The notes beneath the pieces are model-generated. The model ran no database searches. It saw only the letters and a list, made by a program, of their open reading frames with translations, and was not told the DNA's origin. This document shows positions 1 through 14,913 of a stretch of 37,935 bases of DNA, piece after piece. Source of the stretch: a virus. Within the stretch, counting starts at the first letter, position 1; each line of letters opens with the position of its first letter. The stretch is taken from IMG/VR virus record IMGVR_UViG_3300040815_000997, positions 1 to 37,935 of that record; one strand, given 5' to 3'. The position numbers and the translations under genes were made by a program.

Positions 1-1053
1 GGTATATTTGTTGTTGTCATCATAAACTAATTTACTACATTGTCTTGCACAAGTCATGCACTTATTTTTTCCTTGCCAATATTCTGGCAATTTTTCAAAT
101 AAATTATCATTACTGTCTAATACGCCATCATGGCAGTTCGGTACTCCTACTGTTTTTAATATTAACTTAGTATTTTCTACACTTAGGTTTCTAAGAAAGT
201 GTATAGGTAATTTTTCTTGAATAGGTTGCTCTAAATAATCTCCACCTAACCAACAGCAAGGAAATATATTACCATAAGGATCTACGTATATTCCTTGTTC
301 AGTAACACATTTAGGATCTATAACTGAAGACTCAATTGCTGTATTTCTTATGTCAGGATCAACCAATCTTATTAAACTTTTGTTAGGAGTACGTTTAAAC
401 CTATCTGTTTGTGCCGGTGATATTGTATATTCTATATTACCTTGATTATCATGAACTTCGTATTCTGTCATTTCATAAAATCGTGTAGTGCTTACAAAAT
501 TAACACTCTTTACACCAATATCTAAAAGATATTGTTCAAGTTCATCTACATCATATTCGTTATGTGCAAAAACTAAACTATCAACACGAGCATTACCTCC
601 TGCATCAACGAATGCTTTTAAGTTTTCAATTACTTTATCAAAGTTTGTATTTTTACGATATAACTCGTGCTTACCTTTAAATCCGTCTACAGCAAAAATA
701 ACTTCAATATTATATTGTGCTAATTTTTTCCACCATGTAGGATTACGCATACCGCCATTAGTATGAATTGCTAGTCGTACAGTAGGATTACATTCTCTAA
801 CATAAGAATAAATTTCTAAACAATCACTTGCAAATGCAGGGTCACCGTAGTTTCCGCAACTATAAAAATTGTCTAATTGTGCTATAAAGTTTTTTGGAAA
901 CCATTCCTTGAATTGATCTATAGAAATATCACCATTACGAATAAACGGTCTTGTTTTTCCGCCATGATAATTTCTAGCACACATAGGGCATTGTGCTTGA
1001 CACTTATCAGTTAGTTCAATATGAACAGTTTTAATGTTAGAAACTAACTGCAT
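1..1053 (-). CDS. Radical SAM/SPASM domain protein, 3' end cut by window edge
   Basis: I translated this frame by hand. It is open from an ATG at 1053 to the left edge (351 codons, no stop), so the C-terminus is missing. The radical SAM cluster motif CxxxCxxC is Cys18, Cys22 and Cys25 (K-CQAQCPMC-A). In place of the usual GGEP there is a G-N-Y-G-D-P stretch near residue 68, and 'HTNGG' near 97-101. The C-terminal part has a SPASM-like cysteine set: Cys249, Gly261, Cys266/267 (G-NIFPCC), Cys307, and Cys332-x2-Cys335-x3-Cys339. Such proteins bind one SAM-cleaving and one or two auxiliary 4Fe-4S clusters and modify peptides or small molecules; the substrate here is unknown. The start overlaps the preceding gene by 17 bases and has a strong AAGGAG site 7 bases upstream. 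It differs from the four twitch-type proteins at 4265-9553, whose extra cysteines are N-terminal. Confidence 0.9.
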   Translation of the reverse strand, partial: MQLVSNIKTVHIELTDKCQAQCPMCARNYHGGKTRPFIRNGDISIDQFKEWFPKNFIAQLDNFYSCGNYGDPAFASDCLEIYSYVRECNPTVRLAIHTNGGMRNPTWWKKLAQYNIEVIFAVDGFKGKHELYRKNTNFDKVIENLKAFVDAGGNARVDSLVFAHNEYDVDELEQYLLDIGVKSVNFVSTTRFYEMTEYEVHDNQGNIEYTISPAQTDRFKRTPNKSLIRLVDPDIRNTAIESSVIDPKCVTEQGIYVDPYGNIFPCCWLGGDYLEQPIQEKLPIHFLRNLSVENTKLILKTVGVPNCHDGVLDSNDNLFEKLPEYWQGKNKCMTCARQCSKLVYDDNNKYT

Positions 1054-2971
1054 CAAACTGCTCCTTAAGCCATTCAAAGTTGTTAATTAAATTTAGGCTA
1101 TCTGGTTTATAGCGATTATCATAACCGTAGTCACGGCCACTCCGAGCGCCGTGAATAGCATACTTTCCATACAATGTATCCTTTCCCATCTCGCACCAAA
1201 TTCTAAGTCTTTCTTCTGTTTCATTATCTACTTGTCCTCGTATTGTTTTACTTGCTAATTTACAACATTCTCTAAATGCACTTTTCCAAGTTGAAAATGC
1301 ATCTGTGTCAAATGCTGTTACATTGCTTACCTTATCCATCGCATTAAATTTTGGACTAATACTTGTTGTCATATCAGTCTTTGTTATATCCATATTAATT
1401 GTTTCTTTCACAGGAAACAATTTTATACCACCATAACCATATTCTAAATCGTTAATAGGATTACGGCTACGCCAAACAAACACTTGGTCTCGTTGCCATT
1501 TCGGAACTTGATGCTCAAATGTAAAATCGTCCAACACTTGTGCATCACCGTCTACAACAAAAAACATATTTGTTGTACATAACTTTGCTGCTTCTATATG
1601 TGCTTGATGAATGCCTTTAACACCATGTATACGTTTTGCTCTAGGAAAACGTTGTGTAAGCATACTATAGTTATCATCTGCATTAAATTCGTTATAAGAT
1701 ATGAAAACTATATCATAAGGCTTAGGCTTACTAACAGTTATATCAATTTCTTTTTTGTTTACAAAGAATCTATAATCAAACTCACGCTGTGCAAGTGGTT
1801 TATCTTTGTGTATCAGAAACACACCATCATGATATTTGTCGTTTTTGAATACGTGTATATTGTCACGTTCGTAGTAAGGTATGTGATAATTAAAATCCCA
1901 ATCTACATCAACATCATTTGGAATTACATAGAAAAAATCTGTGCTAACTTTCTTTCTTTGTTCACAAAATTGTTCATAATCGTCAACATAGATTTTATCA
2001 TATTCTAGCGCATCACTAGCTATAATGTCGTGTTCTTTTTTGTTAGTTATAAATCTATACTTAAATTCGCGCTCACTAATAGTTGCATGTTTGCTGCATA
2101 ATACAACACCATCATAATATTCACCGTTTTTAAATACGTGATTTATTTTTCTATCATATTCATTATCATGACTAAAATACATTTCAAACGCAAAGTCATC
2201 ACGAGGATGAACATGAGGTGGTATTATCCAAAACATTTCTGTTTCGACATTTTCTAAAAAGTCTAGATATTCTTCATATGTATTAACTACACAAATTTCA
2301 TATTGTCTAGGACCACTTACTACATCATCCCATTGTTTTGCATTTACTAAGAATCTATAGTCAATTTGCTTTTTGTTGAGGGGTTTATTTTTTGAACATA
2401 AGAAAACGCCGTTGTATAATTTCCTTCCATCAACATCATGTACAAACGCATGATTTTCCTTTCTATCGTAACTGTTGTGGTGACTAAAATAAAAGTTGTT
2501 TATGTATGATTGATCGTATTTTAAGTTGTGCGACACTGCCCAAAACAATTCTGTTGAACTATTCTCAAGAGCTTGCTCATACTCTTCCCAAGTATCTACA
2601 TAAAACATTTGAAAAGGCTGAGGAAAACTTGCTACTATGTCAACTTCTTTTTTGTTTATAAAGAACCTATGACGTAGTTCTCGTTCTGACACTTCAGCAC
2701 GTTTAGGTACAAGTACTATACCATCTCGATGCTCACCGTTTAAGAAAGTGTGTATATAATCTTGGCTCCATTCATCTGCACGATAATCAAATTTAAAGTC
2801 GTCACAAACATTAACATCGGGCCAAACTACCCAAAACATTTTTGTAAAAGCCAATTGTTGTGCATCAGAAAACGAATTCGCACTTTTTGCTCTTGGAAAT
2901 TTATCTTTCAATTTTTTCCAAGAAGCACTAGCATAAATTGTATTATCATTTATAAAAACAATATCATACAT
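1037..2971 (-). CDS. Glycosyltransferase-like protein with four N-terminal degenerate repeats
   Basis: A 644-aa protein. The C-terminal part (residues about 418-644) is a GT-A/family-2-like module: it starts 'YDIVFISYNE', has 'FPRAKRIHGVKG', a D-G-D at 474-476 after 'MFFVV' (the usual DxD metal/nucleotide-sugar position), and ends 'GAR...INNFEWL'. It is clearly paralogous to the 299-aa protein at 10044-10943, which shares the order of all these marks. Residues 2-416 are four tandem units of about 95-115 residues, each with an 'MFW-V/I' strand, an H-x-F-x-N-G-x-x-x-DGV strand and an 'R-E-x-x-Y-R-F-x-x-N-K-K-E-x-DI' end. They look like shortened copies of the same fold lacking DxD. The protein is probably soluble (no signal or membrane segment seen). 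The ATG lies directly after a TATAAT box with no Shine-Dalgarno sequence. The fold is assigned by motif; donor and acceptor are unknown. Confidence 0.82.
   Translation of the reverse strand: MYDIVFINDNTIYASASWKKLKDKFPRAKSANSFSDAQQLAFTKMFWVVWPDVNVCDDFKFDYRADEWSQDYIHTFLNGEHRDGIVLVPKRAEVSERELRHRFFINKKEVDIVASFPQPFQMFYVDTWEEYEQALENSSTELFWAVSHNLKYDQSYINNFYFSHHNSYDRKENHAFVHDVDGRKLYNGVFLCSKNKPLNKKQIDYRFLVNAKQWDDVVSGPRQYEICVVNTYEEYLDFLENVETEMFWIIPPHVHPRDDFAFEMYFSHDNEYDRKINHVFKNGEYYDGVVLCSKHATISEREFKYRFITNKKEHDIIASDALEYDKIYVDDYEQFCEQRKKVSTDFFYVIPNDVDVDWDFNYHIPYYERDNIHVFKNDKYHDGVFLIHKDKPLAQREFDYRFFVNKKEIDITVSKPKPYDIVFISYNEFNADDNYSMLTQRFPRAKRIHGVKGIHQAHIEAAKLCTTNMFFVVDGDAQVLDDFTFEHQVPKWQRDQVFVWRSRNPINDLEYGYGGIKLFPVKETINMDITKTDMTTSISPKFNAMDKVSNVTAFDTDAFSTWKSAFRECCKLASKTIRGQVDNETEERLRIWCEMGKDTLYGKYAIHGARSGRDYGYDNRYKPDSLNLINNFEWLKEQFDAVSF
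1061..1066 (-). promoter_or_regulatory. Ribosome binding site for the radical SAM/SPASM gene
   Basis: AAGGAG on the minus strand, 7 bases before the ATG at 1053. It lies inside the last codons of the upstream glycosyltransferase gene and fixes the start of a gene that has no stop inside the window. Confidence 0.8.
1724..2968 (-). repeat. Four tandem protein repeats within the glycosyltransferase gene
   Basis: Approximate units are residues 2-117, 120-218, 222-319 and 323-416 of the 644-aa protein. Each carries an aromatic 'FW' strand followed about 30 residues later by 'H-x-F-x-x-G/D-x-x-x-x-G-V' and 'Y/H-R-F-x-x-N-x-K'. The DNA is diverged, so the duplication is old or the units were reshuffled. 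Unit edges are by eye. Confidence 0.8.
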
Positions 2972-2976
2972 ATCTT

Positions 2977-3005
2977 ATTATACAATCATTCATAACGCAT
3001 GTCAA
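2977..3005 (-). promoter_or_regulatory. Consensus sigma-70 promoter, apparently leaderless
   Basis: On the minus strand TTGACA (3005-3000), a 17-base spacer (2999-2983) and TATAAT (2982-2977) match the bacterial housekeeping consensus at all 12 positions with ideal spacing. The expected start of transcription (about 2971-2970) coincides with the ATG at 2971, and no Shine-Dalgarno sequence precedes that ATG, so the mRNA may be leaderless. Most of the promoter lies in the end of the upstream gene, whose TGA is at 2988-2986. The sequence match is direct; activity is inferred. Confidence 0.75.
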
Positions 3006-4287
3006 TGAAAAGGTTATAAAACTTTATTGCCATTTTCTTTTCTAAGAAACGTTTTTGATTCGCAAGCATAAAAGGTTTAGATTCTTCAATTAATTCATTC
3101 ATTTTATCTTCATTTGAAAATGCTAACTTTTTTATATTTTCAACTATTAATTCTATACGTTTTGTAGGTGTTGTTATTTTATCGTAATCTTGTGGTAATA
3201 ATGAATTATAACTGTAATAATTTTCATTATTTAAATATGACATAGTGTCTACTGAACCAATAACCATAAACGGATGCCCTTGTGCAATTTGTGACCAAAC
3301 ATTATACCCCGGAGCTAGTGCAGCAAGCTCTTGTTTAAAATATGTGTCAACATTTAAAAAATTATCATCACACACAATATTAACTAATGTATTAGTATAA
3401 GAATTTTTATCAATAATTTTTCTATTTTTATTATCATATCGTTTGATATTTTTTAAAAAGTCTTGTTTACTAATTTTTTCGATAGAAGATTTTCTAGGAT
3501 CAATATAATTATTATTAAGTTCTTTAATTTCGTAATCGTCTAAATCTAAATCAAAATTTCCATAATGATCAACTTGTTTATAAAGTAATTCTAAAAGCAA
3601 AGCAATATCATGATCCTTGCCACTAGATATTACATTAAAAATATTTTTAGGATTCCATTTTAAAGGATTAAATTTATCTTTAGTAACATTTTTTATAGGT
3701 TTGCCGCGGGTGTCATAACCAAAAATCCAATGTAAGTCTGACTGCTTCCATTTTGTTTTGTATAGAAGTTGCGTGTATATTTGTTGATAATCTATTCCAA
3801 ATACATTTTTTGTAACAAACTCGTTTTTATATACGCCTCTAATTTCTCCTATAATAATTGTAATACTTTCTGGTGAGATACCAGTATCAACTATTTCTTG
3901 TATTCTAGAATTTAGCCTTGTAATAATATAATGATTTCCAGTTACCTTTGGAGCAAGTATTAGCAAGTTCATTTGTCTTTTTTTAATCATGCGACGAGCT
4001 CTTTTTGATATTAAATCAACCCAACTTCTGTCCCAGTTAAATGACTGATCAGCAAGCTCGATTGGATAAAACAAATTGTTTGCTTTTTGTTTTTCTGTAA
4101 ACAAGCTGACTTGTACTTTATTTGCCCTAACGACAAAATAAAATGTATTCATTACACTAATAGGTGTAAAAATTGTATGATTTTTTACATATGGAATACG
4201 CCTTGCATCAGTAGTTAATGCAAGTTCTTTAGCACCATTCGGAGCAGGCACATCTTCTATTATATTATCGTAGTATAAGTTTATCAT
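2986..4287 (-). CDS. Possible glycosyltransferase, very AT-rich gene
   Basis: The frame extends up to 4332, but I place the start at the ATG at 4287 (M-I-N-L-Y-Y), which has AAGGA 5 bases upstream; this gives 433 aa and a 23-base overlap with the previous gene. I do not recognise the protein as a whole. Near the C-terminus 'QIAQGHPFMVIGSVDTMSYL' followed by a Y-D-x-I-x-x-x-x-x-R-I-x-x-I stretch resembles the end of many small phage and bacterial glycosyltransferase-like proteins that read EKTFKPI-x-x-GHPF. A strand-turn 'LLILAPKVTGNHYIITRLN' lies in the first third. The gene is rich in Asn, Lys and Ile and has much lower GC than its radical SAM neighbours, suggesting a different origin. Its place among glycosyltransferases supports, but does not prove, a sugar-transfer role. 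Confidence 0.6.
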   Translation of the reverse strand: MINLYYDNIIEDVPAPNGAKELALTTDARRIPYVKNHTIFTPISVMNTFYFVVRANKVQVSLFTEKQKANNLFYPIELADQSFNWDRSWVDLISKRARRMIKKRQMNLLILAPKVTGNHYIITRLNSRIQEIVDTGISPESITIIIGEIRGVYKNEFVTKNVFGIDYQQIYTQLLYKTKWKQSDLHWIFGYDTRGKPIKNVTKDKFNPLKWNPKNIFNVISSGKDHDIALLLELLYKQVDHYGNFDLDLDDYEIKELNNNYIDPRKSSIEKISKQDFLKNIKRYDNKNRKIIDKNSYTNTLVNIVCDDNFLNVDTYFKQELAALAPGYNVWSQIAQGHPFMVIGSVDTMSYLNNENYYSYNSLLPQDYDKITTPTKRIELIVENIKKLAFSNEDKMNELIEESKPFMLANQKRFLEKKMAIKFYNLFIDMRYE

Positions 4288-5443
4288 GCCATTCCTTAAA
4301 TGTCTCTGCATAGCTCTGATTGCGTATAACATCCAAACGCTTGTTCTCAGTTAAGAACTGTTCAAATGCTACTGTGTTTGCTTCTTGACTTAGAAAATTA
4401 TTTATATTGTCATAGAATGGCATACCAGCAATTTTGTCTAGCACAGCCTGTTTGGCATGTTGAGGTGCATTTGCTGCACTATAATAGTTTGGATGATGCA
4501 CCATGTTGTGCGAAACATATACACCTTTGCTTCTAAAGAACTCCCAAAATTCTTTGATATAATAAATGTTCATAATGCTTACTGTTTGTAGAACATAACT
4601 TTTGTGTCCTAGACCGTGTAACCAATTAAATGATTCAATAGTCCTGTCCCACTTTGCAGGATGTCTTAGATATGTGTTTCGTTCTTCTAAGCAATCAATT
4701 GACACCATAAACTCAACTTGCTCAAACTCTTTCCACAAATCTATATATTTGTTGTTTATAATTGTTGCATTTGTGCTGTATACTAGTGTAATTTTATTAG
4801 CCAAATTTTTAGTAATTAAAAACTCTAAGAAACGCATGTGCTTGTCTACAAGTAAAGGTTCGCCGCCGTTTATATAAACTTTGCGTGTGTTGTTACAGTG
4901 TTGTGCAAGGCTTGCCCAAAAGCGTTCGTCTAAAGGCCAATCAAACATACTCTGCGGTGTGTCAAATTTACGCTCGTTTAGTTTTTCCCAATCACGTATC
5001 CATTTGGAACTGCTTTGCGGATTACATGACCGACATGCTAGATTACAGATGTTGCCTAGTCGCAGTTCAATAAATTCAAAATTTACTTCATCTAGTGTGC
5101 CGTCTGCCTGTGTAATACGCTGTGCATCTTCTATGCTAAAGTCTAGCAACTTTGTGTCACGAGTACGCTTGCTTTCGTTGCCTAACTCTTCTAGTTTGTA
5201 GCACTTTGAGCAAGGTGCAGGTTGCTTACCTTCCAACATGTCTTTACGCACTTGTTTGAACAAGTCTGAGTTCATAATTTTTTCAAAGTCGTACTCTGTA
5301 TTGTGCAATGTGATAAACTCACGTGGCAAATTCTGTGCTTCGCTGTTGCGATTAGTCATATCACTTTCACAACAAAGTGTAACACTACCATGTGGGTGTG
5401 TTGCTAGGTGTGTCCACGGTAAAGGGCAAAATGTTTTACTCAA
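4265..5443 (-). CDS. Twitch-type radical SAM protein (probable TTG start)
   Basis: The frame is open upstream to a GTG at 5473, but the protein most likely starts at TTG 5443, giving M-S-K-T-F-C-P-L-P-W, the normal beginning for this family, and an overlap of 8 bases with the upstream gene. Length is then 392 aa. Numbering from TTG, N-terminal auxiliary-cluster cysteines are Cys6, Cys24/25 and Cys78-x2-Cys81; the radical SAM CxxxCxxC is Cys133, Cys137, Cys140 (C-NLACRSC); GGEP is at 193-196. Family knowledge: such proteins ('twitch domain-containing radical SAM') bind a SAM-cleaving 4Fe-4S cluster plus one auxiliary cluster. The reaction and substrate here are unknown. It is most like the 436-aa protein upstream, sharing the F-C-x-x-P-W-T-H start and 'CC' pair. 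Confidence 0.9.
   Translation of the reverse strand: MSKTFCPLPWTHLATHPHGSVTLCCESDMTNRNSEAQNLPREFITLHNTEYDFEKIMNSDLFKQVRKDMLEGKQPAPCSKCYKLEELGNESKRTRDTKLLDFSIEDAQRITQADGTLDEVNFEFIELRLGNICNLACRSCNPQSSSKWIRDWEKLNERKFDTPQSMFDWPLDERFWASLAQHCNNTRKVYINGGEPLLVDKHMRFLEFLITKNLANKITLVYSTNATIINNKYIDLWKEFEQVEFMVSIDCLEERNTYLRHPAKWDRTIESFNWLHGLGHKSYVLQTVSIMNIYYIKEFWEFFRSKGVYVSHNMVHHPNYYSAANAPQHAKQAVLDKIAGMPFYDNINNFLSQEANTVAFEQFLTENKRLDVIRNQSYAETFKEWHDKLILR
4289..4297 (-). promoter_or_regulatory. Ribosome binding site that decides the 4287 start
   Basis: AAGGAATGG on the minus strand, with AAGGA 5 bases from the ATG at 4287. The same bases code Lys-Glu-Trp near the C-terminus of the upstream radical SAM protein. 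The upstream ATG candidate at 4332 has no comparable site. Confidence 0.75.
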
Positions 5444-6746
5444 TGTTGTCCCACCATTCCTTGCCAGCGTCACTCAGTGTGTCTCTAAAAGTAACATCTT
5501 GCGTTCTAATTCTTTCTAAGAACAGTATGTTCTTCTTACCTCGTCTCCAACCGTCTGCATAGTTTATAAATTCTTCTTCAAACGTAGGACGCTCAAGCAT
5601 ATTTTCTAGCGTTTCTTGATACACACGAGTTTTGTGTGTAACTCTAGGCTTGATGTAGTCTAACAGCGTGTGTATTTGCTCATCTAATACGTGTCTTGGC
5701 AAACACATAGGACTCATTAGCACACTAGGGTCAAATGCAAAGGTAATTTTAAAGTAGCTCTTTACATCTAGTTCTGTAACTACGTCAAACATACGCTTCA
5801 AGTCAAAAAGTCCTGGTGTTGTAAGTGTTACATCAAACACCATAGCGTCATTGCCATACTTGTCAATAAGAAACATGCCGTCTTTGAAGTTTTGTAGCCA
5901 TTCGTCCCACTTGAGTCCTGTTCTAATGTACTCGCCCACTGCACCTACACCGTCTATGCTGGCACAAATGTTAACACGTTTGAAGTTGTCCAGCATTTCG
6001 TACAGTTTGTAGTCTTTGTAGTGCGTTCTACTCAAGTTTGTGTTGTAGCGTACAACTACATCTTGGCTTTTTCCTTCGTCTACTAGCTGTTGCATGATAC
6101 GCCAGTGGATGTCATACATAAGCGGCTCGCCGCCTACCCAGTATAACTCCTCTACAATGCCTTTGTCAACTGCTGCTTGTAGTTCTGTTTCAAGAACTTC
6201 CTTTTGAAACGTTGCAATCTTCTTACGTGTATCTGGTTGCATCCATTTCTCACGCTCATAGTTGACTACGTTGTGTTTAATCTTTTCAGTTTCCCAACTT
6301 GAGCTTAATTGCTCGCCACACATACGACATTTGAAGTTGCACAAATTACTAATACGATAGTCATAGCTTATAGGCTGCATGGTTGTGTAGCCATCTTCTC
6401 GTGTGCTTGCAATTATATCATCAATTTTGTGTGGGAAAAGTGTGTTGGTAAAGTAATTTTTATAGGTATGTAAGTTTAGTACTTGATTATTGCATACATC
6501 GCATTGCGAAATCTTCTCTCCTGCAAGGATACGCTTGCGAATATCTTTCATGTATTCGCTGTTCCAGTGTTCTTCTAGGCTTACTGGTGCAAATTCTGCG
6601 TTATCGTTGTCGCCTGCGTCAATGTACTGCTTTTGGAAGGATGCATCTTCGCGACTTGCACAACATAACCTACGCTCGCCCTGTGGGCTAACGTAAGTAT
6701 GTGTCCATGGTGCTGTGCAAAAATATGGTCCAACCTTATCAGTCAT
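5436..6746 (-). CDS. Twitch-type radical SAM protein (436 aa)
   Basis: Starts at the ATG at 6746, overlapping the previous gene by 8 bases; there is no clear Shine-Dalgarno sequence, so translation may be coupled. N-terminal 'FCTAPWTH' gives Cys10, then Cys28/29 and Cys82-x2-Cys85, the set expected to hold an auxiliary 4Fe-4S cluster. The radical SAM motif is Cys136, Cys140, Cys143 (C-NFKCRMC). GGEP is at 205-208, followed by 'RYNTNLS' and 'ASIDGVGAVGEYIRTGLKW', typical of the radical SAM barrel. It is paralogous to the three neighbouring genes, closest to the one at 4265-5443. GC is higher than in the genes at either end of the cluster (28 of 60 bases at 5941-6000). Substrate unknown. Confidence 0.92.
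   Translation of the reverse strand: MTDKVGPYFCTAPWTHTYVSPQGERRLCCASREDASFQKQYIDAGDNDNAEFAPVSLEEHWNSEYMKDIRKRILAGEKISQCDVCNNQVLNLHTYKNYFTNTLFPHKIDDIIASTREDGYTTMQPISYDYRISNLCNFKCRMCGEQLSSSWETEKIKHNVVNYEREKWMQPDTRKKIATFQKEVLETELQAAVDKGIVEELYWVGGEPLMYDIHWRIMQQLVDEGKSQDVVVRYNTNLSRTHYKDYKLYEMLDNFKRVNICASIDGVGAVGEYIRTGLKWDEWLQNFKDGMFLIDKYGNDAMVFDVTLTTPGLFDLKRMFDVVTELDVKSYFKITFAFDPSVLMSPMCLPRHVLDEQIHTLLDYIKPRVTHKTRVYQETLENMLERPTFEEEFINYADGWRRGKKNILFLERIRTQDVTFRDTLSDAGKEWWDNIE
5454..5462 (-). promoter_or_regulatory. Candidate ribosome binding site before the TTG start
   Basis: AAGGAATGG, followed by GTGGGA, upstream of TTG 5443. AAGGA is 14 bases from TTG, longer than ideal; the intervening GGTGGGA could serve instead. 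The bases code Lys-Glu-Trp near the end of the upstream protein, as at two other junctions. Confidence 0.45.
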
Positions 6747-8187
6747 ATGTCGCCAACGGTTCGTCTATGTTTTTGTTGTCAGGTTTTAGTATCCAGCCTT
6801 CTTTTTCAGCAAGTTCCATAATGCTTGCATCTGTATCTGGAATACTTTCTACCCAATCTGTTAGAATTTTTGGAAAAACATAAATGCTTTTGTTTCTACG
6901 CACATCATACTGTGCATAAAATGTCTTAAAGTCACGCCAAAGTGTAACTGGATTGCTTGTACGCCTATGCGGAGCATCTACAGTAACAAGATAGTCAATC
7001 AATCTTTCAATACTTGCACGTTCAAACTCGTGCCATCCTTCTTTGTGTTTGTTTGCTTCCCACCAAGTGCTTAGATTAGCATGACAATGATCCTTGATAT
7101 GGTTAGGTAATGCTAGTGGCGATTGAAAACTTGGAAAACGTAGCAGATTTAAACTAACAGTAGGTGTTCTACTCTGTGTAAGTTCTTTTAGTTTGTACAC
7201 TTCATCAAGAAAATCTGTGATGCTAAACAAGCAAAGGCTGTTAATTGTCATCATGATGTGTACACCTTTGGTGTTTGCTTCAGTAAGAATACGCTTGATG
7301 TTGGTTAGCCACTGTTCATACACTAGTCCATCGCGAATGTACTCTGCTTGTGCGCCTGTTGCTTCACAACTTGTGTACAATTCAAAATGATTCATGCCCT
7401 GTGTTTTAGCAATCAGCTTGTCTACAATATCTTTTTTAGCAATAAGGTTGCTGTTAATAGCAAAACGCATGTTTGATTCTTGTTCATTAAACCAATCAAA
7501 CAGTTTCCATGTGTTTCCGCTCATCAAAGGCTCACCGCCTGTAATACGTAATTCTTCTAAACTGTCTGACAATCCGTTATCCCACCATTTCCAAAACGCT
7601 TGAATGTAGGGATTGTCTTCATCATCTTTATAAGGCTGTGTCCAGGACCCGTCTTGTCTGAACGCACCTGCACCGTCGCTTACAAGATTCGTGTATTCAC
7701 CGTGTTTCTTAATGTCTTTGGCCCATGTGGTTGAGAAGGAGGCATTGCAGTATGAGCAAGCAAGATTGCAAGTCCTATCAAAAGCAATTTCAAACGTTTT
7801 AAGATTGACACTTTCATTATGATCTCTTTCATATGCACGTTGTAATTCTTCGTCTGAGTATATGATGCTTTTAAAAGTTCTATCACTTACGGCATCCTTA
7901 CCCATATCTTCCATTTTCCAACAATATTCACACTCACGAGGACGCTCACCTGCTTGCATCATACGGCGCATTTCTTTTTTATGCTTAGTATTATGGATAG
8001 CAGTATAATCTTCTTGTACTTCTACAACTGGTATTTTATGTGCAGGTGGGTGATGGCAACTTGCTGTCGTGCCACTCCCTAGCCAAGTAGTTGCATTAAA
8101 CCACTTTGCTCCGCAAAAACTTTTACTTTTGCTGTCTAATACCCTGTCACGATATTGCTGTAGTGTTTCGTCAGGTTTTTTCGCCAT
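6739..8187 (-). CDS. Twitch-type radical SAM protein (482 aa)
   Basis: The ATG at 8187 overlaps the upstream gene by 17 bases and has GAGGA 5 bases before it. Auxiliary-cluster cysteines: Cys25, Cys44 (in 'CHHP'), Cys86-x2-Cys89. Radical SAM motif: Cys140, Cys144, Cys147 (C-NLACSYC). GGEP at 217-220 in 'ELRITGGEP'. It forms a subpair with the 460-aa protein upstream: both have 'CHHP-x-x-HKIP', 'ERP-x-EC-x-YCWK-x-ED', 'NPY-x-x-AFWKW' and 'Y-x-RDGL-x-Y-x-W'. A helical tail after about residue 440 is longer than in its relatives. Role: generates a 5'-deoxyadenosyl radical to modify an unknown substrate. Confidence 0.92.
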   Translation of the reverse strand: MAKKPDETLQQYRDRVLDSKSKSFCGAKWFNATTWLGSGTTASCHHPPAHKIPVVEVQEDYTAIHNTKHKKEMRRMMQAGERPRECEYCWKMEDMGKDAVSDRTFKSIIYSDEELQRAYERDHNESVNLKTFEIAFDRTCNLACSYCNASFSTTWAKDIKKHGEYTNLVSDGAGAFRQDGSWTQPYKDDEDNPYIQAFWKWWDNGLSDSLEELRITGGEPLMSGNTWKLFDWFNEQESNMRFAINSNLIAKKDIVDKLIAKTQGMNHFELYTSCEATGAQAEYIRDGLVYEQWLTNIKRILTEANTKGVHIMMTINSLCLFSITDFLDEVYKLKELTQSRTPTVSLNLLRFPSFQSPLALPNHIKDHCHANLSTWWEANKHKEGWHEFERASIERLIDYLVTVDAPHRRTSNPVTLWRDFKTFYAQYDVRRNKSIYVFPKILTDWVESIPDTDASIMELAEKEGWILKPDNKNIDEPLATYD

Positions 8188-9553
8188 TCCATTCCTCTAA
8201 CAAATGTGCATATTGTGGAAAAGTTTCCACAAAATCTTTGTTTCTTCTTTCATCGTATGCATATATGTATCGCACAAAGTCAGCTCTATGCTCTGTTGCT
8301 GGCTCTGTTGTACGCAAGTAATCACAAAATCTTTGTATTTGATCAAATTCTTCTAGATATATTCTAGCGTACTTTTCTTTAGTATAATATTTTAACCAAT
8401 TTTTACAAACTGCTTCTATAGTATTAGCGGTGCTTATTCTATAATCCTTATCTAACAATGTGCATTGTAGATGCGGTGGCCAATGCATGATATTAATACT
8501 TAGAGGTACTCTATTTGTTTCAAAACTAGTATTATAAATTTTACGTAAATCCATAACAGTCATTATAAAATCAAGAAATGTTGTTAGACTTAAAATATTA
8601 ATTGTTGTCATTATAGCAACTGTGCTTTTAGTTTCTTTTAATATACGTTCTACATTACCTATCCATTTAAAATAGTTTAGTCCATCTCTTGCATACTCTG
8701 CTTGATTGCCTGTGCTTTCTAAACTTGTATATACATCTACTTTTACATTTACTTCTGCAAGAGCATTAATTTTCTCAATCAATTTATCTATAAGTTTATC
8801 TTCAACACAACCATTTGTATTAATTGCAACGTCAAGTCCTTGACGAGGATTTTCAATAAGATAATCTAATAATTTCCAAGTATCTTTTGCCATCGTAGGC
8901 TCGCCGCCCGTAATGCGAAGTACTTTTAGATAAGGAAGTGCATTAGGAAACCATTTCCAAAAGGCTTCTACATAAGGATTATGATCACGATTTAAGTAAG
9001 GCATTTTGCCTGATTTTTCTAAATAATCTAAGTTATGAGCGCCATGCTTCGTAGGATACGGTCCGTGTTGTTTTACATCTTCCATCCACTTACTACTAAT
9101 TTCAGGTGAACAATATGCACATGCAAAATTACAAGCATTTGAAAAACTAACTTCTAAATAACTTGGATATACATTTTCTCCCGGATCACTTTCTGCAATT
9201 TCTTCAAATCTATCCCAGGCCCATGTATCTGCTGTTTTATAGTGACGATCACTAAAATAGTCTTTACCTAAGTCTTCAATCTTCCAACAGTAACTACATT
9301 CGCTAGGACGTTCTCCTGTTAACATTTTTAGTCTTTGTTCTTTTTTATATTGACTATTGTGCAATGCAGCAGGATCTGCTTCTATTTCTTTTAAAGGAAT
9401 CTTATGAGGTGCTGGATGATGACAACTGTGATTATAACCGTTTTGAAGCATTAATGTAGTCTGCAACCATTTAGCCGTGCAGAATGAACAACTAACATTG
9501 TTAATTTTTTCACGCTTCTCTTCAAGAATTTTTATACGCTGTTCGTTACTCAT
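8171..9553 (-). CDS. Twitch-type radical SAM protein (460 aa)
   Basis: First of the four consecutive radical SAM genes in transcription order. The ATG at 9553 overlaps the stop of the acetyltransferase gene (ATGA) and has no obvious Shine-Dalgarno sequence, suggesting coupled translation. Cysteines: Cys22/25, Cys44 ('CHHP'), Cys86-x2-Cys89 for the auxiliary cluster; Cys141, Cys145, Cys148 (C-NFACAYC) for the radical SAM cluster; GGEP at 216-219. 'INTNGC' and 'TSLESTGNQAEYARDGL' continue the barrel pattern. It is a close paralogue of the 482-aa protein but its gene is more AT-rich (17 of 60 GC at 8401-8460). Function beyond radical SAM chemistry is not visible. Confidence 0.92.
   Translation of the reverse strand: MSNEQRIKILEEKREKINNVSCSFCTAKWLQTTLMLQNGYNHSCHHPAPHKIPLKEIEADPAALHNSQYKKEQRLKMLTGERPSECSYCWKIEDLGKDYFSDRHYKTADTWAWDRFEEIAESDPGENVYPSYLEVSFSNACNFACAYCSPEISSKWMEDVKQHGPYPTKHGAHNLDYLEKSGKMPYLNRDHNPYVEAFWKWFPNALPYLKVLRITGGEPTMAKDTWKLLDYLIENPRQGLDVAINTNGCVEDKLIDKLIEKINALAEVNVKVDVYTSLESTGNQAEYARDGLNYFKWIGNVERILKETKSTVAIMTTINILSLTTFLDFIMTVMDLRKIYNTSFETNRVPLSINIMHWPPHLQCTLLDKDYRISTANTIEAVCKNWLKYYTKEKYARIYLEEFDQIQRFCDYLRTTEPATEHRADFVRYIYAYDERRNKDFVETFPQYAHLLEEWNGEKT
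8189..8197 (-). promoter_or_regulatory. Ribosome binding site for the 482-aa radical SAM gene
   Basis: GAGGAATGG on the minus strand, with GAGGA 5 bases before the ATG at 8187. It codes Glu-Glu-Trp near the end of the upstream radical SAM protein. Confidence 0.75.
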
Positions 9554-10047
9554 AAGGGATATTTAAAATTCTGTGTTGTGCTATTAATTGCAATCTGCTT
9601 TGCACCATTACGAATATGAAAATGTGTTGCCATAGGTGTTAAGGGAGATAATGTTAGTAGTTGTGTTATCTCAGGCTTAGTGCGTATGTGTTCTGCAAGT
9701 TTGCCTATTAATTCTTTTCCTGCGCCCCGTTTACGGCTCCAAATAGTATAAGCTATTGCTGTGTCTGCATCTTTCTTATAAAATGCATTCTGACTCATTA
9801 AATCAAGTTCTTTTACACTAATAGGAATATCGTTTGTATATGCTACACAAACAATACCTTCTATTTCATTTTCGTATTTGAGTCCATAAATTTTACGTCC
9901 GCAACTTGTACGCCATTCTACATCAAGTTCAGGGCGTACCGGATCTTCAGTAACGTCAATATCTTCTAACTCTACAAGTTCTGTCTTTTTAACCCAACCA
10001 AAGAAATTATCAATAGTTGCTTTCCATTTGTTTATACTTTCATTCAT
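9550..10047 (-). CDS. GNAT-like N-acetyltransferase
   Basis: A 165-aa protein. The core 'AIAYTIWSRKRGAGKELIGKLAEHI' region carries the acetyl-CoA pyrophosphate loop (R-K-R-G-A-G-K, matching the GNAT R/Q-x-x-G-x-G/A motif), followed by a strand 'LLTLSPLTPMATHFHIRNGAKQI', where F-x-x-x-G-A near the end is typical of the family's last conserved helix and strand. It would transfer an acetyl group from acetyl-CoA to an amine; in a glycosyltransferase/radical SAM cluster an amino sugar is a plausible acceptor, but this is inference. The start at 10047 has AAGGAGG about 6 bases upstream and overlaps the previous gene by 4 bases; its own stop overlaps the next start. No signal peptide or membrane segment. 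Confidence 0.78.
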   Translation of the reverse strand: MNESINKWKATIDNFFGWVKKTELVELEDIDVTEDPVRPELDVEWRTSCGRKIYGLKYENEIEGIVCVAYTNDIPISVKELDLMSQNAFYKKDADTAIAYTIWSRKRGAGKELIGKLAEHIRTKPEITQLLTLSPLTPMATHFHIRNGAKQIAINSTTQNFKYPL

Positions 10048-10943
10048 TTCGCCCTCCTTAATATTCTAGCACTGTTTTGATAAACGCTTTTAAAAAATTT
10101 ACTTTGCTCTGCATCTAACGGCTTAGTAGAAATATCAACTCCTGTACCTTTAAGTATTTCTAAGCCCAACCGCTCTGCTTCTTCTTCCGGATTTAAATCT
10201 TTTACATCACTTTCCCAAAAGTTGTTTAACCATTGAAAGTCTCGTACATTAGCATAATCCCAATCTGTACAGTTTGTCATATAGCATCCTTGACGGGCAC
10301 CTAGTATACTCCATATACCATTTTCTACATCTGCACCTACTTGACTCCATATAAGCAGTCTATCATAATTTTGCCACCATACTTTTCGTAAGTCATCTAC
10401 TTTGGCGCCCTGATCTAAACTCATCTTAACACCTTCGCGAAAACCCGCCCGCCAAGCCTGCCAAGGTGTCGCATTAGTGTAAGAAACACTATAGTTCTCG
10501 TTAAACTGGTAATAGTTGTTGTCGAAGCAGAATTCAACTTTGCCACGCTCGTCTCCTTCTTCACTGTGTTCGTGTGTTTTCATGTTGTGTACAAACTTAC
10601 GTGTCCACATCTTTAAACCACCATTGCCGTACATTAATCCATTAACATGTACTTTGCCACACCAGCTAAAAACGTGATCTGGTGTTACACCTAGTTCTTC
10701 AATATCTACTTCTTGATTAAGAAATTCTTGATCTACAATATTGTCTGCATCTACAGTAACAAAGTATTCTGTTTCACTTAGATCCGCACAAGCCTTGTGT
10801 GCAGCATCTGATCCATGTACTCCGTGAACACGTTTTGCCCAAGGTACTTTGCTACACAAATCTGCATAATTCTTTTCTGCATTTGGTTCGTCGTAGCTCA
10901 AGAAAATAATATCCTGATCTATAACTTTAATTTTAGAACTCAT
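10044..10943 (-). CDS. GT2-like glycosyltransferase
   Basis: A 299-aa protein beginning with a Rossmann-type strand 'DIIFLSYDEPNAEKNY', then 'VPWAKRVHGVHGSDAAH' and 'YFVTVDADNIV', giving D65-A-D67 as the DxD motif for a metal-bound nucleotide sugar. The second half has 'NGLMYGNGGLKMW' (an acceptor-side GG loop common in GT2 proteins), 'WQAWRAGFREG' and 'GAR-x-G'. It is paralogous to the C-terminal module of the 644-aa protein at 1037-2971, which contains the same blocks in the same order. The ATG directly follows the upstream stop (TAAATG) and has GGAG about 6 bases upstream. Likely cytoplasmic. Sugar donor and acceptor cannot be read from sequence. Confidence 0.82.
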   Translation of the reverse strand: MSSKIKVIDQDIIFLSYDEPNAEKNYADLCSKVPWAKRVHGVHGSDAAHKACADLSETEYFVTVDADNIVDQEFLNQEVDIEELGVTPDHVFSWCGKVHVNGLMYGNGGLKMWTRKFVHNMKTHEHSEEGDERGKVEFCFDNNYYQFNENYSVSYTNATPWQAWRAGFREGVKMSLDQGAKVDDLRKVWWQNYDRLLIWSQVGADVENGIWSILGARQGCYMTNCTDWDYANVRDFQWLNNFWESDVKDLNPEEEAERLGLEILKGTGVDISTKPLDAEQSKFFKSVYQNSARILRRAK

Positions 10944-11516
10944 TTAAGACTCCACTATATGGCTATAATTATCAAATACTTTTCCACAGTATACACTCAC
11001 ATCATTGCGTTGAGCAATCTTTTTATTTGTATTTTTAACTTCAGTACGATCTTGATTTAAAATATCATTAAAACTTACTTGTAATGTATCAAGCAATATA
11101 TTAGGGTCATCTTGATCAGTTACAAATAACATATGATTTTTATTTTTGTAATATGACGTACTTGATAATAAGGATCTTAAATTTTCTGACAAAGAAATAT
11201 ACCATTTTCCTTTGTTAGTGTTTTGTATTACATTTAATACTAGGTCTTGGTCAATGGGACCTTTTGGAAATTTATGAATACTTCTATCAACATTGAAAGA
11301 TTCAATAGTATAATGTTTAAATTTTAATTCAAACGATCCTTTTCCTGTAGCAGAAGGAATTACAATATAATCGTCAAGACGCTTTCTTTCTTCTGCAAAT
11401 TCTATCATAGTTTCTTTGTCTATCTCCATGTAAGGTGAAGACGAATCGAGAATATTTGTTAATTTCCAAACTTGTCCTGTATCTTCTCTAAAATTAAGAT
11501 AAAACTTTTGATTCAT
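10944..11516 (-). CDS. Unrecognised 190-aa protein in the glycosyltransferase cluster
   Basis: I do not recognise this family. It is a soluble, mixed alpha/beta, Lys/Asp-rich sequence without cysteine clusters (one Cys near the C-terminus), signal peptide or membrane segment. It begins 'MNQKFYLNFREDTGQVW' and has a charged middle 'EERKRLDDYIVIPSATGKG'. It overlaps the upstream glycosyltransferase gene by 23 bases and abuts the next, so it is almost certainly co-expressed with them. The Shine-Dalgarno signal is weak. It could be an accessory subunit or a virion-associated protein; nothing in the sequence decides this. Confidence 0.7.
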   Translation of the reverse strand: MNQKFYLNFREDTGQVWKLTNILDSSSPYMEIDKETMIEFAEERKRLDDYIVIPSATGKGSFELKFKHYTIESFNVDRSIHKFPKGPIDQDLVLNVIQNTNKGKWYISLSENLRSLLSSTSYYKNKNHMLFVTDQDDPNILLDTLQVSFNDILNQDRTEVKNTNKKIAQRNDVSVYCGKVFDNYSHIVES

Positions 11517-12336
11517 TTTTTAATTTCTCTATAATTTCGTCTGTTAAGAATGCATCTTCAACATAATGCAAAACTCTAGTTTGTAAATAATTACCTAAGA
11601 TTAAGTTTCCATCATTTCTGTAATACTTTCCTATAACAGTGGTCCAGTTTTCTGGAATATTTTTCCACCTTTGTACATGAGGTTTCATATGAGTAAATGT
11701 TATAAAACTATTTGGGTCTGTTATGTCTTTTTCATTATCTAAAATTTTACTAGCGATAGCAGCACAAAGATCAATACTACACCATTTTTGATAATTCTCT
11801 TTTGCATATTCAGTATAAAATAGTTGCCAATTATTAACTATTATTTCAAGTAAAGTATAAAACTCTTTTGCAATGTCTCCTTTTTTGAAATAATGTAAGG
11901 CACTATAAAGATTTGGTAAATTATTTGAATCAAACGTTTTTCTGTAATAACGACTTGTAACTAATTCATCTCGGTAAGTTCTTACATTGCTTACAAAAAA
12001 TAAATCACGTTTTGATAATTCTTTCCACCAATGACTTATATCATGTGTTATTAACATATCCGCTTCAAGAACAATAGTCTCTTCGTAAGGACTAGCATGG
12101 TATACCTTCCAACGATTTTCAATTTTCCATTCACTGTTTTCTGCACTATCAGTCCAGGGGATAGGAATAATTTTATCAAAAGGTTCTTGCCATTCTTTTG
12201 GCATAACATCATTAGTAATTAAACTAATCTTTTGATTTTTATTATATTTGTGTAAACTAAGTGCAAGGGCATACGCCTGTCTTAAGTAGTCAGTTTTTTC
12301 ATTATTTTGTGCTAATAAACAAAATCCTTTACTCAT
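11494..12336 (-). CDS. Glycosyltransferase-like protein (280 aa)
   Basis: Starts M-S-K-G-F-C-L-L-A-Q-N-N, nearly the same as the next gene upstream (12329-13189), and keeps its layout: 'DYLRQAYALALSLHKYN', a strand 'ISLITNDV', then 'ETIVLEADMLI' with E91-A-D93 at the DxD position. The second half has 'W-x-x-Y' motifs and a 'FTHMKPHVQRW' block with a His that may bind the metal, as in GT8-like enzymes. I therefore call it a GT-A fold glycosyltransferase with a modified E-x-D. The start overlaps the preceding gene by 8 bases; GAGG lies about 9 bases upstream. Donor and acceptor unknown. Confidence 0.72.
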   Translation of the reverse strand: MSKGFCLLAQNNEKTDYLRQAYALALSLHKYNKNQKISLITNDVMPKEWQEPFDKIIPIPWTDSAENSEWKIENRWKVYHASPYEETIVLEADMLITHDISHWWKELSKRDLFFVSNVRTYRDELVTSRYYRKTFDSNNLPNLYSALHYFKKGDIAKEFYTLLEIIVNNWQLFYTEYAKENYQKWCSIDLCAAIASKILDNEKDITDPNSFITFTHMKPHVQRWKNIPENWTTVIGKYYRNDGNLILGNYLQTRVLHYVEDAFLTDEIIEKLKNESKVLS

Positions 12337-13189
12337 TAGTTAACACCTCGTTTATTGCACGATCTAAGCTAAACTTATTCATTATATGGATATTAACATT
12401 TTCAATAGAACTTACGTCATAATGACCCTTCCAATCTTTTTTATCTAATAAAAATAGATATCTTTCTTCTTCCATTTTTACTAAAACATCTACATCAGTA
12501 GTAAACCATAATTTTCCTGGCATAGGATGCGGCCAAGATGTTCTTTGATGCCCGTTCATTAAATGTATAGCAATACTAAAACTGAAGTCATTACGATATG
12601 TAACTTCGGGAATTTGATAAACTAATCTGTAGTACAACCAATTTTCTTTAATATGGTTTACTAGATCAAAAAATATTTTAGTGCGTTCTGTTTTTTTAAA
12701 ATAAAAAACTGTAGCCCAATACATATCAATACTTCTATCACTAATTTTATTAAATCTATGCTCATCAGGTCTTTCTAAATTTAAATCAGTAATATAACGA
12801 TGAATTAAAAAATCTTGATCAGTTAAAAAAGCATTAAGGAAGATATCATTACCTATAATAAAATCCGTATCCATAACTATTGTTTCATCAAACGGTGTTA
12901 TGTCATAGATGGACCCTCTTTCATGATTACGCCATTCTAGATCTCTATTACTCATAGTCCCGTCATGAAAGATTCTTTTCTGTTTACATTCTTTCCATTC
13001 TAGCTCTATTATATGATCTATATAGTTTGTATAGTAAGGATAGTTTTCTAATAACCAAGAGACATTATCTGTTGCAATAGCAACAGGCAAGTTTAAATGT
13101 TTTTTAATTTTTTTTGCACAAAAAACTGCTTGTTTCACATAGTCTATTGTATGATTATTTTGCGCAAAAAGAACTACGCCTTTACTCAT
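12329..13189 (-). CDS. Glycosyltransferase-like protein (286 aa)
   Basis: Paralogue of the next gene (11494-12336), sharing the M-S-K-G-x-x-x-x-A-Q-N-N start, a D-Y-x-x-Q-A helix and a metal-site strand 'ETIVMDTDFII' with D107-T-D109. It also has 'FWATVFYFKKTE'-type strands around residue 160 (read in sequence as Y-W-A-T-V-F-Y-F-K-K) and 'NVNIHIMNK' near the end. The pattern fits a GT-A fold transferase using a nucleotide sugar and Mn or Mg. The start overlaps the 115-aa gene by 4 bases (ATGA). It is the first enzyme gene behind the strong promoter at 13558-13586. Specificity not visible. Confidence 0.75.
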   Translation of the reverse strand: MSKGVVLFAQNNHTIDYVKQAVFCAKKIKKHLNLPVAIATDNVSWLLENYPYYTNYIDHIIELEWKECKQKRIFHDGTMSNRDLEWRNHERGSIYDITPFDETIVMDTDFIIGNDIFLNAFLTDQDFLIHRYITDLNLERPDEHRFNKISDRSIDMYWATVFYFKKTERTKIFFDLVNHIKENWLYYRLVYQIPEVTYRNDFSFSIAIHLMNGHQRTSWPHPMPGKLWFTTDVDVLVKMEEERYLFLLDKKDWKGHYDVSSIENVNIHIMNKFSLDRAINEVLTNE

Positions 13190-13533
13190 ATATTAACTAG
13201 ACCTTCAATTGTTCTATTTTTCTTAATCTCATTATATTTGTCAAGATATTCGTAAGACGCTCTAAAATAGATATCTAAAATTTCATCTGTAAATGTTTGT
13301 AAATCTTCTACATTAACAGGAGTTTCATTGTCATCTATTAGTACTGCACTAGACTGTTTGCTTTGTAGTAGAGTATGACAAAATGTAATTAACTCTCTAT
13401 TAACACTAAATTTGCCGCCGTTTAAGTAATGCACACATGTTTCTAAAAACTGCTCTTGTATTAAGCGTTTTTGATTATTTAATGTGGTCATGTATTTAGA
13501 AAATTCAAGTGCTTTTTCTAGTCGTTGATCCAT
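13186..13533 (-). CDS. Small helical protein of unknown function, first gene after the promoter
   Basis: A 115-aa protein made almost wholly of predicted amphipathic helix: 'LEKALEFSKYMTTLNNQKRLIQEQFLE' at the start and 'EILDIYFRASYEYLDKYNEIKKNRTIEGLV' at the end, with a short acidic loop 'LIDDNETPVNVEDL' between. No signal peptide or cysteine motif. Similar small proteins seem to sit beside tail-fibre genes in marine T4-like phages, from memory; function not known to me. The start is firm: GGAGG lies 6 bases before the ATG at 13533, in a leader of about 18 bases behind a consensus promoter. It overlaps the first glycosyltransferase gene by 4 bases. Confidence 0.8.
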   Translation of the reverse strand: MDQRLEKALEFSKYMTTLNNQKRLIQEQFLETCVHYLNGGKFSVNRELITFCHTLLQSKQSSAVLIDDNETPVNVEDLQTFTDEILDIYFRASYEYLDKYNEIKKNRTIEGLVNI

Positions 13534-13557: not shown

Positions 13558-13586
13558 ATTATATACTAAGTTTACTTGTTTGTCAA
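13558..13586 (-). promoter_or_regulatory. Consensus sigma-70 promoter for the glycosyltransferase/radical SAM module
   Basis: On the minus strand TTGACA (13586-13581), a 17-base spacer (13580-13564) and TATAAT (13563-13558): a full match to the bacterial housekeeping consensus. Transcription would begin near 13551, 18 bases before the ATG at 13533. The -35 box lies only 8 bases after the stop of the last fibre-like gene, and no terminator is seen in the 60-base gap, so read-through from upstream is also likely. In T4-like phages such promoters are usually read early by host RNA polymerase. Confidence 0.85.
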
Positions 13587-13593: not shown

Positions 13594-14910
13594 TTAGGTA
13601 TTTTGGAATTCAGTTGTCACTAACGGAGTTGGTTCAGGAACTGTAACGCCGGTTGCGTTAGTTGCTCGTTTTAAATCTATTCCTGCACTCTGTGTTCCGC
13701 CATCTATAAGCACACGTTCGTCAAAGTTAGGATTACCTTCTGCAAAGTCATTAAAGTAAACTATAAATCGGACAATATCCTGATTAACACGTTTTACTTG
13801 TACTTCTACATAGTTTGCCGAATAGACGCTAGATCCATATTTTCTAAAGATTGTTTGATATCCGGTAGTAAGTTGGTAGTTTCCTACTGCACTGTCTATG
13901 CTACCATTTCCATCTACGTCTGTTGCACCGTCTCTTGCTAGACCGGAGCCTGTAACTGTTGTACTATTCTTTCCAAAAATTACAGTGCCAACACTATTAA
14001 ACATTGAATTCCAGTTAGAATCTTTGTCATTATTATCTGTGCTTGTAAAACTTAGTCTGCATTCGCCGCCTGAATTAAAAAAGTGTCTACGATGGTCATC
14101 GCCTGTAGCCTGTATTGTAGCACCACTAGCATCTACAGTATTATATCCTCCTGGAAAAACAACGTCTAATTCACAAAATATAACGTCATCAGGATCACCG
14201 TCGCCGCCCCATGGACTAAATCTTGTGCTGTTAGTAAAACTTCTATCACTTGTGACAGTAAATTGTCCAGTAGCTACTGCATCTGCAGAAGTTTCAGCAT
14301 TAGTAATTTCATTATATATTCCTATAATACTGTTATTATTATCTTGATTGTTACCTACAATATTATTAGGTGTTCCTAAGATAATTCTAAAAATTGGTTC
14401 TTCTTGCCATACGCCTGACAGTGTGTATGTAGGAGTTGTTAGATATCCGCCGCCGACGTTTGTTATAGTAACACTTGTAGCAACATTACCTGTTAAATTT
14501 ATAGTGGCCGTTGCTGTAGAAGATCCTGAATCAGGAGATGCAATTGTCATTGATACTGACGATATTCCAGATCCAGGGTATAAAACTAGTATTGTTGCAA
14601 CTGAGGCATATCTTGATATGCTGTCATATGTATAAGTGTCACCTACAACATCGCCTGTTGCAGCATTAAAGTTTAATGGATTTGTATTAGACTGGTGTTC
14701 TCTACAGGTATTAATATCTGTTGTAAGTCTATTCCAATGGCTGTGATCTATAAGTTCGTCATTAGCACTAACATTAAAGTCTGCTTGTGAACATGCCATT
14801 TCCTGACCATACCCATTTTGTCCAGAACCGTTACCTAGAACAGCCTGTACTCGTCCGAGTGCTGCCGTGTAATGGGTTGCTTCAATATTATCGCCAGTTA
14901 AGATGGCCAT
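13594..14910 (-). CDS. Virion structural/tail-fibre-like protein (438 aa)
   Basis: Paralogue of the 317-aa protein just upstream. Shared marks are an N-terminal helix-loop with 'A-L-G-R-V-Q-A-V-L-G-x-G-x-G-Q-x-GYGQ', 'H-x-N-x-L-x-x-D-I-N', and a C-terminal block 'DDHRRHFFNSGGECRLSFT' followed by 'W-x-x-M-x-x-x-x-GTV'. Compared with its partner it has about 120 extra residues near 110-200, including a 'VTITNVGGGYLTTPTYTLSG' module of the kind repeated in the giant protein. The ATG at 14910 has AGGAGA about 7 bases upstream and is 3 bases from the previous stop. Beta-rich, no signal peptide; probably a fibre or baseplate-associated protein. It is the last structural gene before the promoter at 13558. 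Confidence 0.78.
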   Translation of the reverse strand: MAILTGDNIEATHYTAALGRVQAVLGNGSGQNGYGQEMACSQADFNVSANDELIDHSHWNRLTTDINTCREHQSNTNPLNFNAATGDVVGDTYTYDSISRYASVATILVLYPGSGISSVSMTIASPDSGSSTATATINLTGNVATSVTITNVGGGYLTTPTYTLSGVWQEEPIFRIILGTPNNIVGNNQDNNNSIIGIYNEITNAETSADAVATGQFTVTSDRSFTNSTRFSPWGGDGDPDDVIFCELDVVFPGGYNTVDASGATIQATGDDHRRHFFNSGGECRLSFTSTDNNDKDSNWNSMFNSVGTVIFGKNSTTVTGSGLARDGATDVDGNGSIDSAVGNYQLTTGYQTIFRKYGSSVYSANYVEVQVKRVNQDIVRFIVYFNDFAEGNPNFDERVLIDGGTQSAGIDLKRATNATGVTVPEPTPLVTTEFQNT

Positions 14911-14913
14911 ACA

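Follow-up and report, generated by a model that had tools for sequence, protein, structure and literature searches.

The IMG/VR virus record IMGVR_UViG_3300040815_000997 (37,935 bases; in the following, the window) carries at positions 1-13533 an enzyme operon with genes for five radical S-adenosylmethionine (SAM) enzymes, five glycosyltransferases (GTs) and one GNAT-fold protein. The core of this operon is a GT cassette of fixed gene order, unk115-GT8a-GT8b-unk190-GTA-GTrep, and the array of radical SAM genes is cargo, which some of the phages have between GTA and GTrep. The operon is headed by a conserved sigma-70 promoter, and the reading favoured here, for which the chances were judged to be about even, is that it remodels the lipid A/lipopolysaccharide (LPS)-core sugars of the host early in infection and thereby alters the receptor.

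Organization of the operon

Almost every gene of the window is located on the minus strand, and the 5' to 3' order is a 5,247-residue baseplate-type protein, then tail/virion genes, then the enzyme operon (unk115, GT8a, GT8b, unk190, GTA, AcT, rS1, rS2, rS3, rS4, GTB, GTrep, rS5). The GTs comprise two of the GT8 type, one with a GT-A fold, one GT-A-related repeat protein and one with a GT-B fold. All genes claimed in an earlier note on this DNA, which was made from the sequence alone, were present on the minus strand and overlapping or tightly packed, with a spacing between operon genes of -68 (overlap) to +14 bases. The features are as follows:

13558..13586, minus: sigma-70 promoter TTGACA-17-TATAAT at the operon head (12/12 match; conserved upstream of unk115)
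13186..13533, minus: unk115, first gene of the operon, always first in the cassette (conserved gene order)
12329..13189, minus: GT8a, GT8-type glycosyltransferase (profile A4 against glycogenin, E 4e-7; conserved DxD-like and C-terminal His columns)
11494..12336, minus: GT8b, GT8-type glycosyltransferase (GT8 profile; phrog_1903, E 7e-7)
10944..11516, minus: unk190, fast-evolving, with its position between GT8b and GTA kept (conserved gene order)
10044..10943, minus: GTA, predicted GT-A-fold glycosyltransferase with an invariant DxD (D65, D67) (structure model; fold matches)
9550..10047, minus: AcT, GNAT-fold, malonyl-CoA-decarboxylase-C-terminal-like, in the nearest relatives only (Pfam PF05292)
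8171..9553, minus: rS1, N-twitch radical SAM (NF033640, 326 bits)
6739..8187, minus: rS2, N-twitch radical SAM (NF033640, 302 bits)
5436..6746, minus: rS3, N-twitch radical SAM (NF033640, 320 bits)
4265..5473, minus: rS4, N-twitch radical SAM (NF033640, 345 bits)
2986..4332, minus: GTB, predicted GT-B-fold glycosyltransferase (structure model; fold matches)
2977..3005, minus: second sigma-70 promoter TTGACA-17-TATAAT, before GTrep (12/12 match)
1037..2971, minus: GTrep, C-terminal GT-A-like domain (about 412-643) after about four degenerate repeats (GTA profile)
1..1077, minus: rS5, radical SAM with C-terminal SPASM-like cysteines, extending to the window end (Pfam Radical_SAM)
13594..22169, minus: tail/virion genes upstream of the operon (PHROG/Pfam tail matches; T4-type late promoters ahead of 14914 and 15898)
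22191..37934, minus: giant baseplate-type protein, 5247 aa (C-terminal 999 aa similar to a cyanophage 'baseplate wedge subunit')

Promoters and expected timing

Only two 12/12 matches to the sigma-70 promoter exist in positions 1-16000, namely those at the operon head and before GTrep. Upstream of unk115, 69 of 84 distinct regions (82%) contained a sigma-70 sequence with at most two mismatches in 12, compared with 3% of dinucleotide shuffles, and the T4 late motif was found there in 4%; upstream of GTrep, sigma-70-like sequences occurred in 31% of 71 regions (3% when shuffled). The T4-type late motif NATAAATA preceded 67% of the orthologues of the gene at 15898-17451 and 71% of those of the gene at 14914-15867 (shuffles, 3%). 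(Note that only such position-specific statistics are meaningful and whole-window motif counts are not; the count of TATAAATA in the whole window was below chance.) In a second group of T4-like phages the operon with the radical SAM array likewise begins at sigma-70 promoters. Because the sigma-70 promoter is conserved at the operon and late promoters are found at the tail genes, the enzymes of the operon are probably made early in infection.

Core cassette and radical SAM cargo

A search of IMG/VR with rS1 yielded 65 loci across which the gene order is conserved, and since this order is kept in about 60 loci, chance was ruled out as the cause of the gene grouping. An independent search with GTA yielded at least 599 contigs, and the neighbours of GTA were counted in the best 80 of them. 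Of 76 GTA genes, 73 had the GT8 genes ahead of them, and the gene directly after GTA (n=75) was GTrep in 47, rS1 in 24 and AcT in three. Hundreds of IMG/VR contigs have the cassette from unk115 to GTrep behind their tail genes, and no N-twitch radical SAM genes were found in any of the eight long array-free contigs searched (up to 161 kb). The division into core and cargo follows from these two observations, i.e., the 47 of 75 cases in which GTrep directly follows GTA and the eight of eight long contigs free of radical SAM genes.

The array of rS1-rS4 was also found without the GT8 and GTA genes in the second T4-like group. The 'one module' of the earlier note therefore holds for the stable GT cassette, whereas the radical SAM array is an insert that also exists apart from it; independent scattering of the genes in related phages, which had been named as a result that would speak against the module, was found for the array and not for the cassette. 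Among the loci anchored on another radical SAM subfamily, 43 of 56 have a gene of these GT families no more than 8 kb away. As many GT cassettes are free of radical SAM genes, the radical SAM genes usually accompany GTs but the GTs do not require radical SAM genes.

Radical SAM enzymes

The consecutive genes rS1-rS4 (4265-9553) scored 302-345 bits against NF033640 ('twitch domain-containing radical SAM', NCBIfam), for which the curated cut-off is 170 bits, so that the four twitch-type paralogues of the earlier description were borne out. Each retains CxxxCxxC, GGEP and four twitch cysteines. Across 17 aligned paralogues no exchange was seen in the SAM-cluster cysteines, in GGE or in the four cysteines of the twitch domain, so that rS1-rS4 seem fit for catalysis and would have a fully ligated auxiliary cluster. 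The N-twitch profile matches the twitch domain of BtrN as well as BlsE, MoaA, viperin and SkfB. BtrN and BlsE act on sugar-type substrates. With BtrN, the twitch radical SAM dehydrogenase of butirosin synthesis, the enzymes share a four-cysteine twitch domain and a three-cysteine SAM cluster; they differ from it in the N-terminal position of the twitch domain, and the overall similarity is remote.

For rS5 (1-1077), described previously as a radical SAM/SPASM protein, Pfam called Radical_SAM at 45 bits but left the SPASM domain uncalled; cysteines of the C-terminal region are at positions 257, 274, 275, 315, 340, 343 and 347. The longest relatives carry up to 14 and 16 matches to the radical SAM family per phage. 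A density of this kind is unusual, as had been noted, but not unprecedented, given the precedents in marine T4-like phages (PMC5332604, PMC7029224).

Glycosyltransferases and GNAT-fold gene

Each of the GT-like genes reported to begin at 1037, 2986, 10044, 11494 and 12329 was backed by a profile or fold match. A combined profile of GT8a and GT8b matches glycogenin (E 4e-7), and as single sequences the two fall short of Pfam GT8. Profiles of GTA and GTB found no helpful match among PDB sequences, and fold comparison was therefore used for these two proteins. In the predicted structure of GTA (pLDDT 91.9), residues 2-157 match GT-A folds with Z about 10, among them the peptide GTs SunS/ThuS and the PBCV-1 capsid GT, and D65/D67 of the DxD are invariant in the aligned homologues; by this model GTA is a GT-A-fold glycosyltransferase. 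The C-terminus of GTrep is homologous to GTA (GTA profile, 129 bits, residues 416-641). The repeats ahead of this domain in GTrep (1037-2971) number about four, are degenerate and span roughly 100 residues each, and the length of GTrep among relatives ranges from about 180 to 960 residues. The gene AcT, previously called GNAT-like, matches the C-terminal domain of malonyl-CoA decarboxylase (PF05292), a member of the GNAT superfamily, at 26.5 bits (cut-off 23.2). AcT is present in five of the 65 loci found with rS1, in close relatives only.

The model of GTB (pLDDT 85.5) is nearest to alpha1,3-fucosyltransferase (FucT; Z 12.6) and to T4 BGT (Z 12.3), with about 290 residues aligned, and on this basis GTB is a GT-B-fold glycosyltransferase with two Rossmann-like domains. 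The likeness to T4 BGT raises a use of the operon in DNA hypermodification, in which the GTs and radical SAM enzymes would make modified bases that evade restriction, in the manner of T4 or phage M6. An early-type promoter would suit this, and a set of GT, radical SAM and GNAT-like genes formally resembles known hypermodification gene sets. It was nevertheless judged very improbable, as two GT8 enzymes, the LpxC/PagP neighbours described below and the gain and loss of modules next to adhesin genes do not fit. The thymidylate-synthase/hydroxymethylase family (PF00303) was absent from all nine long relatives searched, while 9 of 14 control genomes gave a match, so that DNA glucosylation of the T4 type is disfavoured. 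(A search for PF18724, of the thymine-transferase type, was silent even in controls and thus uninformative.)

Neighbourhoods of related radical SAM genes in phages

In the second T4-like group the radical SAM array stands away from tail genes, beside genes for a fatty-acid desaturase, an Asp/Asn hydroxylase, a UDP-glucose/GDP-mannose dehydrogenase and a carbamoyltransferase. The isolated T4-like Vibrio phage K566 has four N-twitch radical SAM genes interleaved with two GT8 genes and one GT4-like gene, followed by an annotated PagP and then by LpxC (E 1e-40). LpxC carries out the committed step in making lipid A. In Vibrio phages K566 and K567 the LpxC gene is annotated merely as 'hypothetical protein' (locus L115, 24444-25250). 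In KVP40 a radical SAM gene is two genes away from a GT4-type gene.

Under a simple hydropathy rule, membrane segments were predicted in four of 153 island proteins, and two or more segments in just two of these 153. The islands downstream (G001 163900-176300, G002, G004 and G021) contain a varied set of tailoring enzymes, with Asp/Asn hydroxylases making up 6 of 89 proteins; arginine deiminase, AMP-binding and QueC-like proteins are further neighbours. PP-loop/QueC-like ATPases (G001 161676-162374, L114 3348-4148, KVP40 133498-134184) recur beside radical SAM genes, both of phages and of a Chloroflexi metagenome-assembled genome (MAG) contig.

Proposed remodelling of the host envelope

In the mechanism proposed, the host sigma-70 RNA polymerase would make the enzymes soon after infection. 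The GT8, GT-A and GT-B enzymes would work on the cytosolic side of the inner membrane, extending or capping the lipid A-core oligosaccharide (LPS or lipooligosaccharide), and radical SAM enzymes of the BtrN kind would oxidise, epimerise or otherwise edit a nucleotide sugar or the bound sugar. The altered surface would then stop acting as a receptor, which would exclude competing phages, and would keep progeny off spent cells and debris. Lying behind the adhesin genes, the operon would allow genes for binding the receptor and genes for altering it to be swapped jointly.

A soluble set of GT8, GT-A and GT-B enzymes without flippase or polymerase is what peripheral LPS-core assembly employs, its transferases being GT8 enzymes of the WaaI/WaaJ/WaaR type and GT10 FucT. 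Envelope sugars are favoured as the target because the soluble GT set fits this assembly and because of the GT8/PagP (annotated)/LpxC context in K566. A role in building or editing a sugar or glycan, one of those suggested in the earlier note, gains support from the confirmed GTs, from the BtrN relationship of the twitch domain and from the gene contexts in the second group (UDP-sugar dehydrogenase and carbamoyltransferase adjoining the array) and in K566; the radical SAM enzymes would accordingly have a part in sugar editing. A bolder form of the proposal is that swappable radical SAM arrays, carried on an early GT operon linked to adhesin genes, furnish the lipid A-core with sugar chemistry that is not the host's own, each phage erasing exactly the receptor of its own fibres; this was considered doubtful.

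Several points weigh against remodelling of lipid A/LPS-core sugars. The likeness to BtrN and BlsE is at the superfamily level only, and MoaA, viperin and the peptide maturase SkfB match too. The PagP of K566 is an annotation for which Pfam gave no confirmation, and the early timing is predicted from promoters alone. Nucleotide-sugar enzymes are few among the island neighbours, which include Asp/Asn hydroxylases (6), 2-oxoglutarate (2OG) oxygenases, a Trp-halogenase-type protein, nitroreductases and methyltransferases, a mix that also fits modification of proteins or small molecules. Covariation of the tail genes with enzyme content was no stronger than that of other cassette genes.

Virion decoration, in which the enzymes would glycosylate and chemically edit the adjoining tail-fibre proteins and so diversify the adhesin, was rated less likely than remodelling of the host envelope, and unlikely in itself. 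The cassette always lies directly behind tail genes, with 73 of 76 GTA genes preceded by it among the best 80 of at least 599 contigs, the GTA fold resembles SunS/ThuS and the PBCV-1 capsid GT, the islands contain Asp/Asn hydroxylases and other tailoring enzymes of the protein type, and nearly all island proteins are soluble. SPASM/twitch radical SAM enzymes, moreover, frequently modify peptides. The fibre modification considered in the earlier note is nonetheless not favoured, as the conserved sigma-70 promoter of the operon stands against the late promoters of the tail genes. Elsewhere, the array is found away from tail genes and beside genes for nucleotide-sugar and carbamoyl transfer, and a related array adjoins LpxC. 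Covariation between tail genes and enzymes was rejected as a sign of fibre modification, as the correlation with the downstream gene content is similar (0.39-0.55) for tail genes, for unk115 and for the GT8 genes.

Production or editing of a peptide or small molecule by the array (RiPP-like, or a protein modification for host takeover), with sugars added by the GTs, would agree with the up to 16 radical SAM matches in a single phage, with the similarities to SkfB and SunS/ThuS, and with the halogenase, nitroreductase, 2OG oxygenase, methyltransferase, arginine deiminase, AMP-binding and QueC-like neighbours. No precursor peptide was recognised, small open reading frames not having been searched systematically, and GT8/GT10-like GTs, LpxC and carbamoyltransferase suit envelope sugars better, so that this was held to be improbable.

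Reports of radical SAM genes in marine T4-like phages go back at least to 2017, with no function assigned to the genes. The promoter, the split into core and cargo and the LpxC/PagP/GT8 context turn this into a testable statement, i.e., an early operon for remodelling of the host envelope that adjoins receptor-binding genes. If true, the choice of adhesin would be linked to erasure of the receptor in aquatic phages that are widespread, and many radical enzymes that edit sugars would await exploration. The Vibrio phages K566, K567 and KVP40 are cultured models for testing.

Neighbouring genes and relation to known systems

The C-terminal 999 aa of the giant protein (22191..37934) showed an identity of 60-62% over 48% to a cyanophage 'baseplate wedge subunit', and by sequence the protein is likely the counterpart of VrlC. 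The tail/virion genes at 13594..22169 are likely receptor-binding neighbours of the operon. A gp23-type major capsid protein (PF07068) was present in 8 of 11 long relatives (its gene is outside the window itself), by which the phage belongs to the T4 superfamily. GTA and GT8b had no match in the cultured phage collection.

The host recognition cluster of pelagimyophages and cyanomyophages is a large variable island directly after VrlC/baseplate and tail-fibre genes; it has GT8 genes and 'radical SAM gene cassettes', and O-chain modification against coinfection has been suggested for it (Zaragoza-Solas 2020, PMC7029224). The hosts were inferred to be SAR11, and detection of middle/late promoters failed according to the authors. 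The operon is alike in that it follows VrlC-like and tail genes and has GT8 and radical SAM cassettes; no description of the fixed GT core, of the single insertion point of the radical SAM genes or of the conserved early promoter was found in that paper. Pelagimyophages are SAR11 phages related to HTVC008M; the gp23 of a long relative was nearest to phages of the PA5oct/Phosso type.

The T4-like environmental genome TARA_ERS488813_N000010 (Nishimura 2017, PMC5332604) has 12 radical SAM genes, reported as Fe-S-cluster related. It is likewise marine and T4-like, with a similar number of radical SAM genes, and the text consulted does not treat an operon for glycans, the order of the genes or their promoters. 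In Tasman Sea viromes, radical SAM and GT genes were enriched together (PMC7150976). Large numbers of radical SAM genes together with GTs had already been described from marine T4-like phages in 2017 and 2020 (PMC5332604, PMC7029224). A literature search on radical SAM, GT and virion glycosylation combined found no paper, and the fixed GT core with one insertion point, its conserved early promoter and the LpxC/PagP/GT8 context were not found in the literature searched.

Vibrio phages K566/K567 and KVP40 resemble the window in having N-twitch radical SAM genes beside GT8/GT4 genes, but the identity is about 25% and the genome position is a different one, not behind tail genes; GTA and GTrep are not present in K566. 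The gtrABC seroconversion clusters of temperate phages (P22) are functionally alike, as phage GTs that alter a receptor glycan, and differ in that no flippase or membrane-bound GT was found here by the hydropathy rule, in the lytic T4-like setting and in the radical SAM enzymes.

N-twitch genes in bacteria

Bacterial N-twitch neighbourhoods were considered as a clue to the pathway and set aside, as the Elusimicrobia arrays and the Chitinophagales GDSL neighbours indicate no single pathway. The Elusimicrobia MAG bin-0981 (L092-L103) has at least 12 N-twitch radical SAM loci, often with several genes in tandem, and those of its proteins that were scanned are fused to long N-terminal TPR arrays. 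In a Chitinophagales MAG, GDSL/SGNH hydrolase genes (L104 8554-9873, 13755-14708) flank N-twitch radical SAM genes, an arrangement that recalls polysaccharide acylation clusters.

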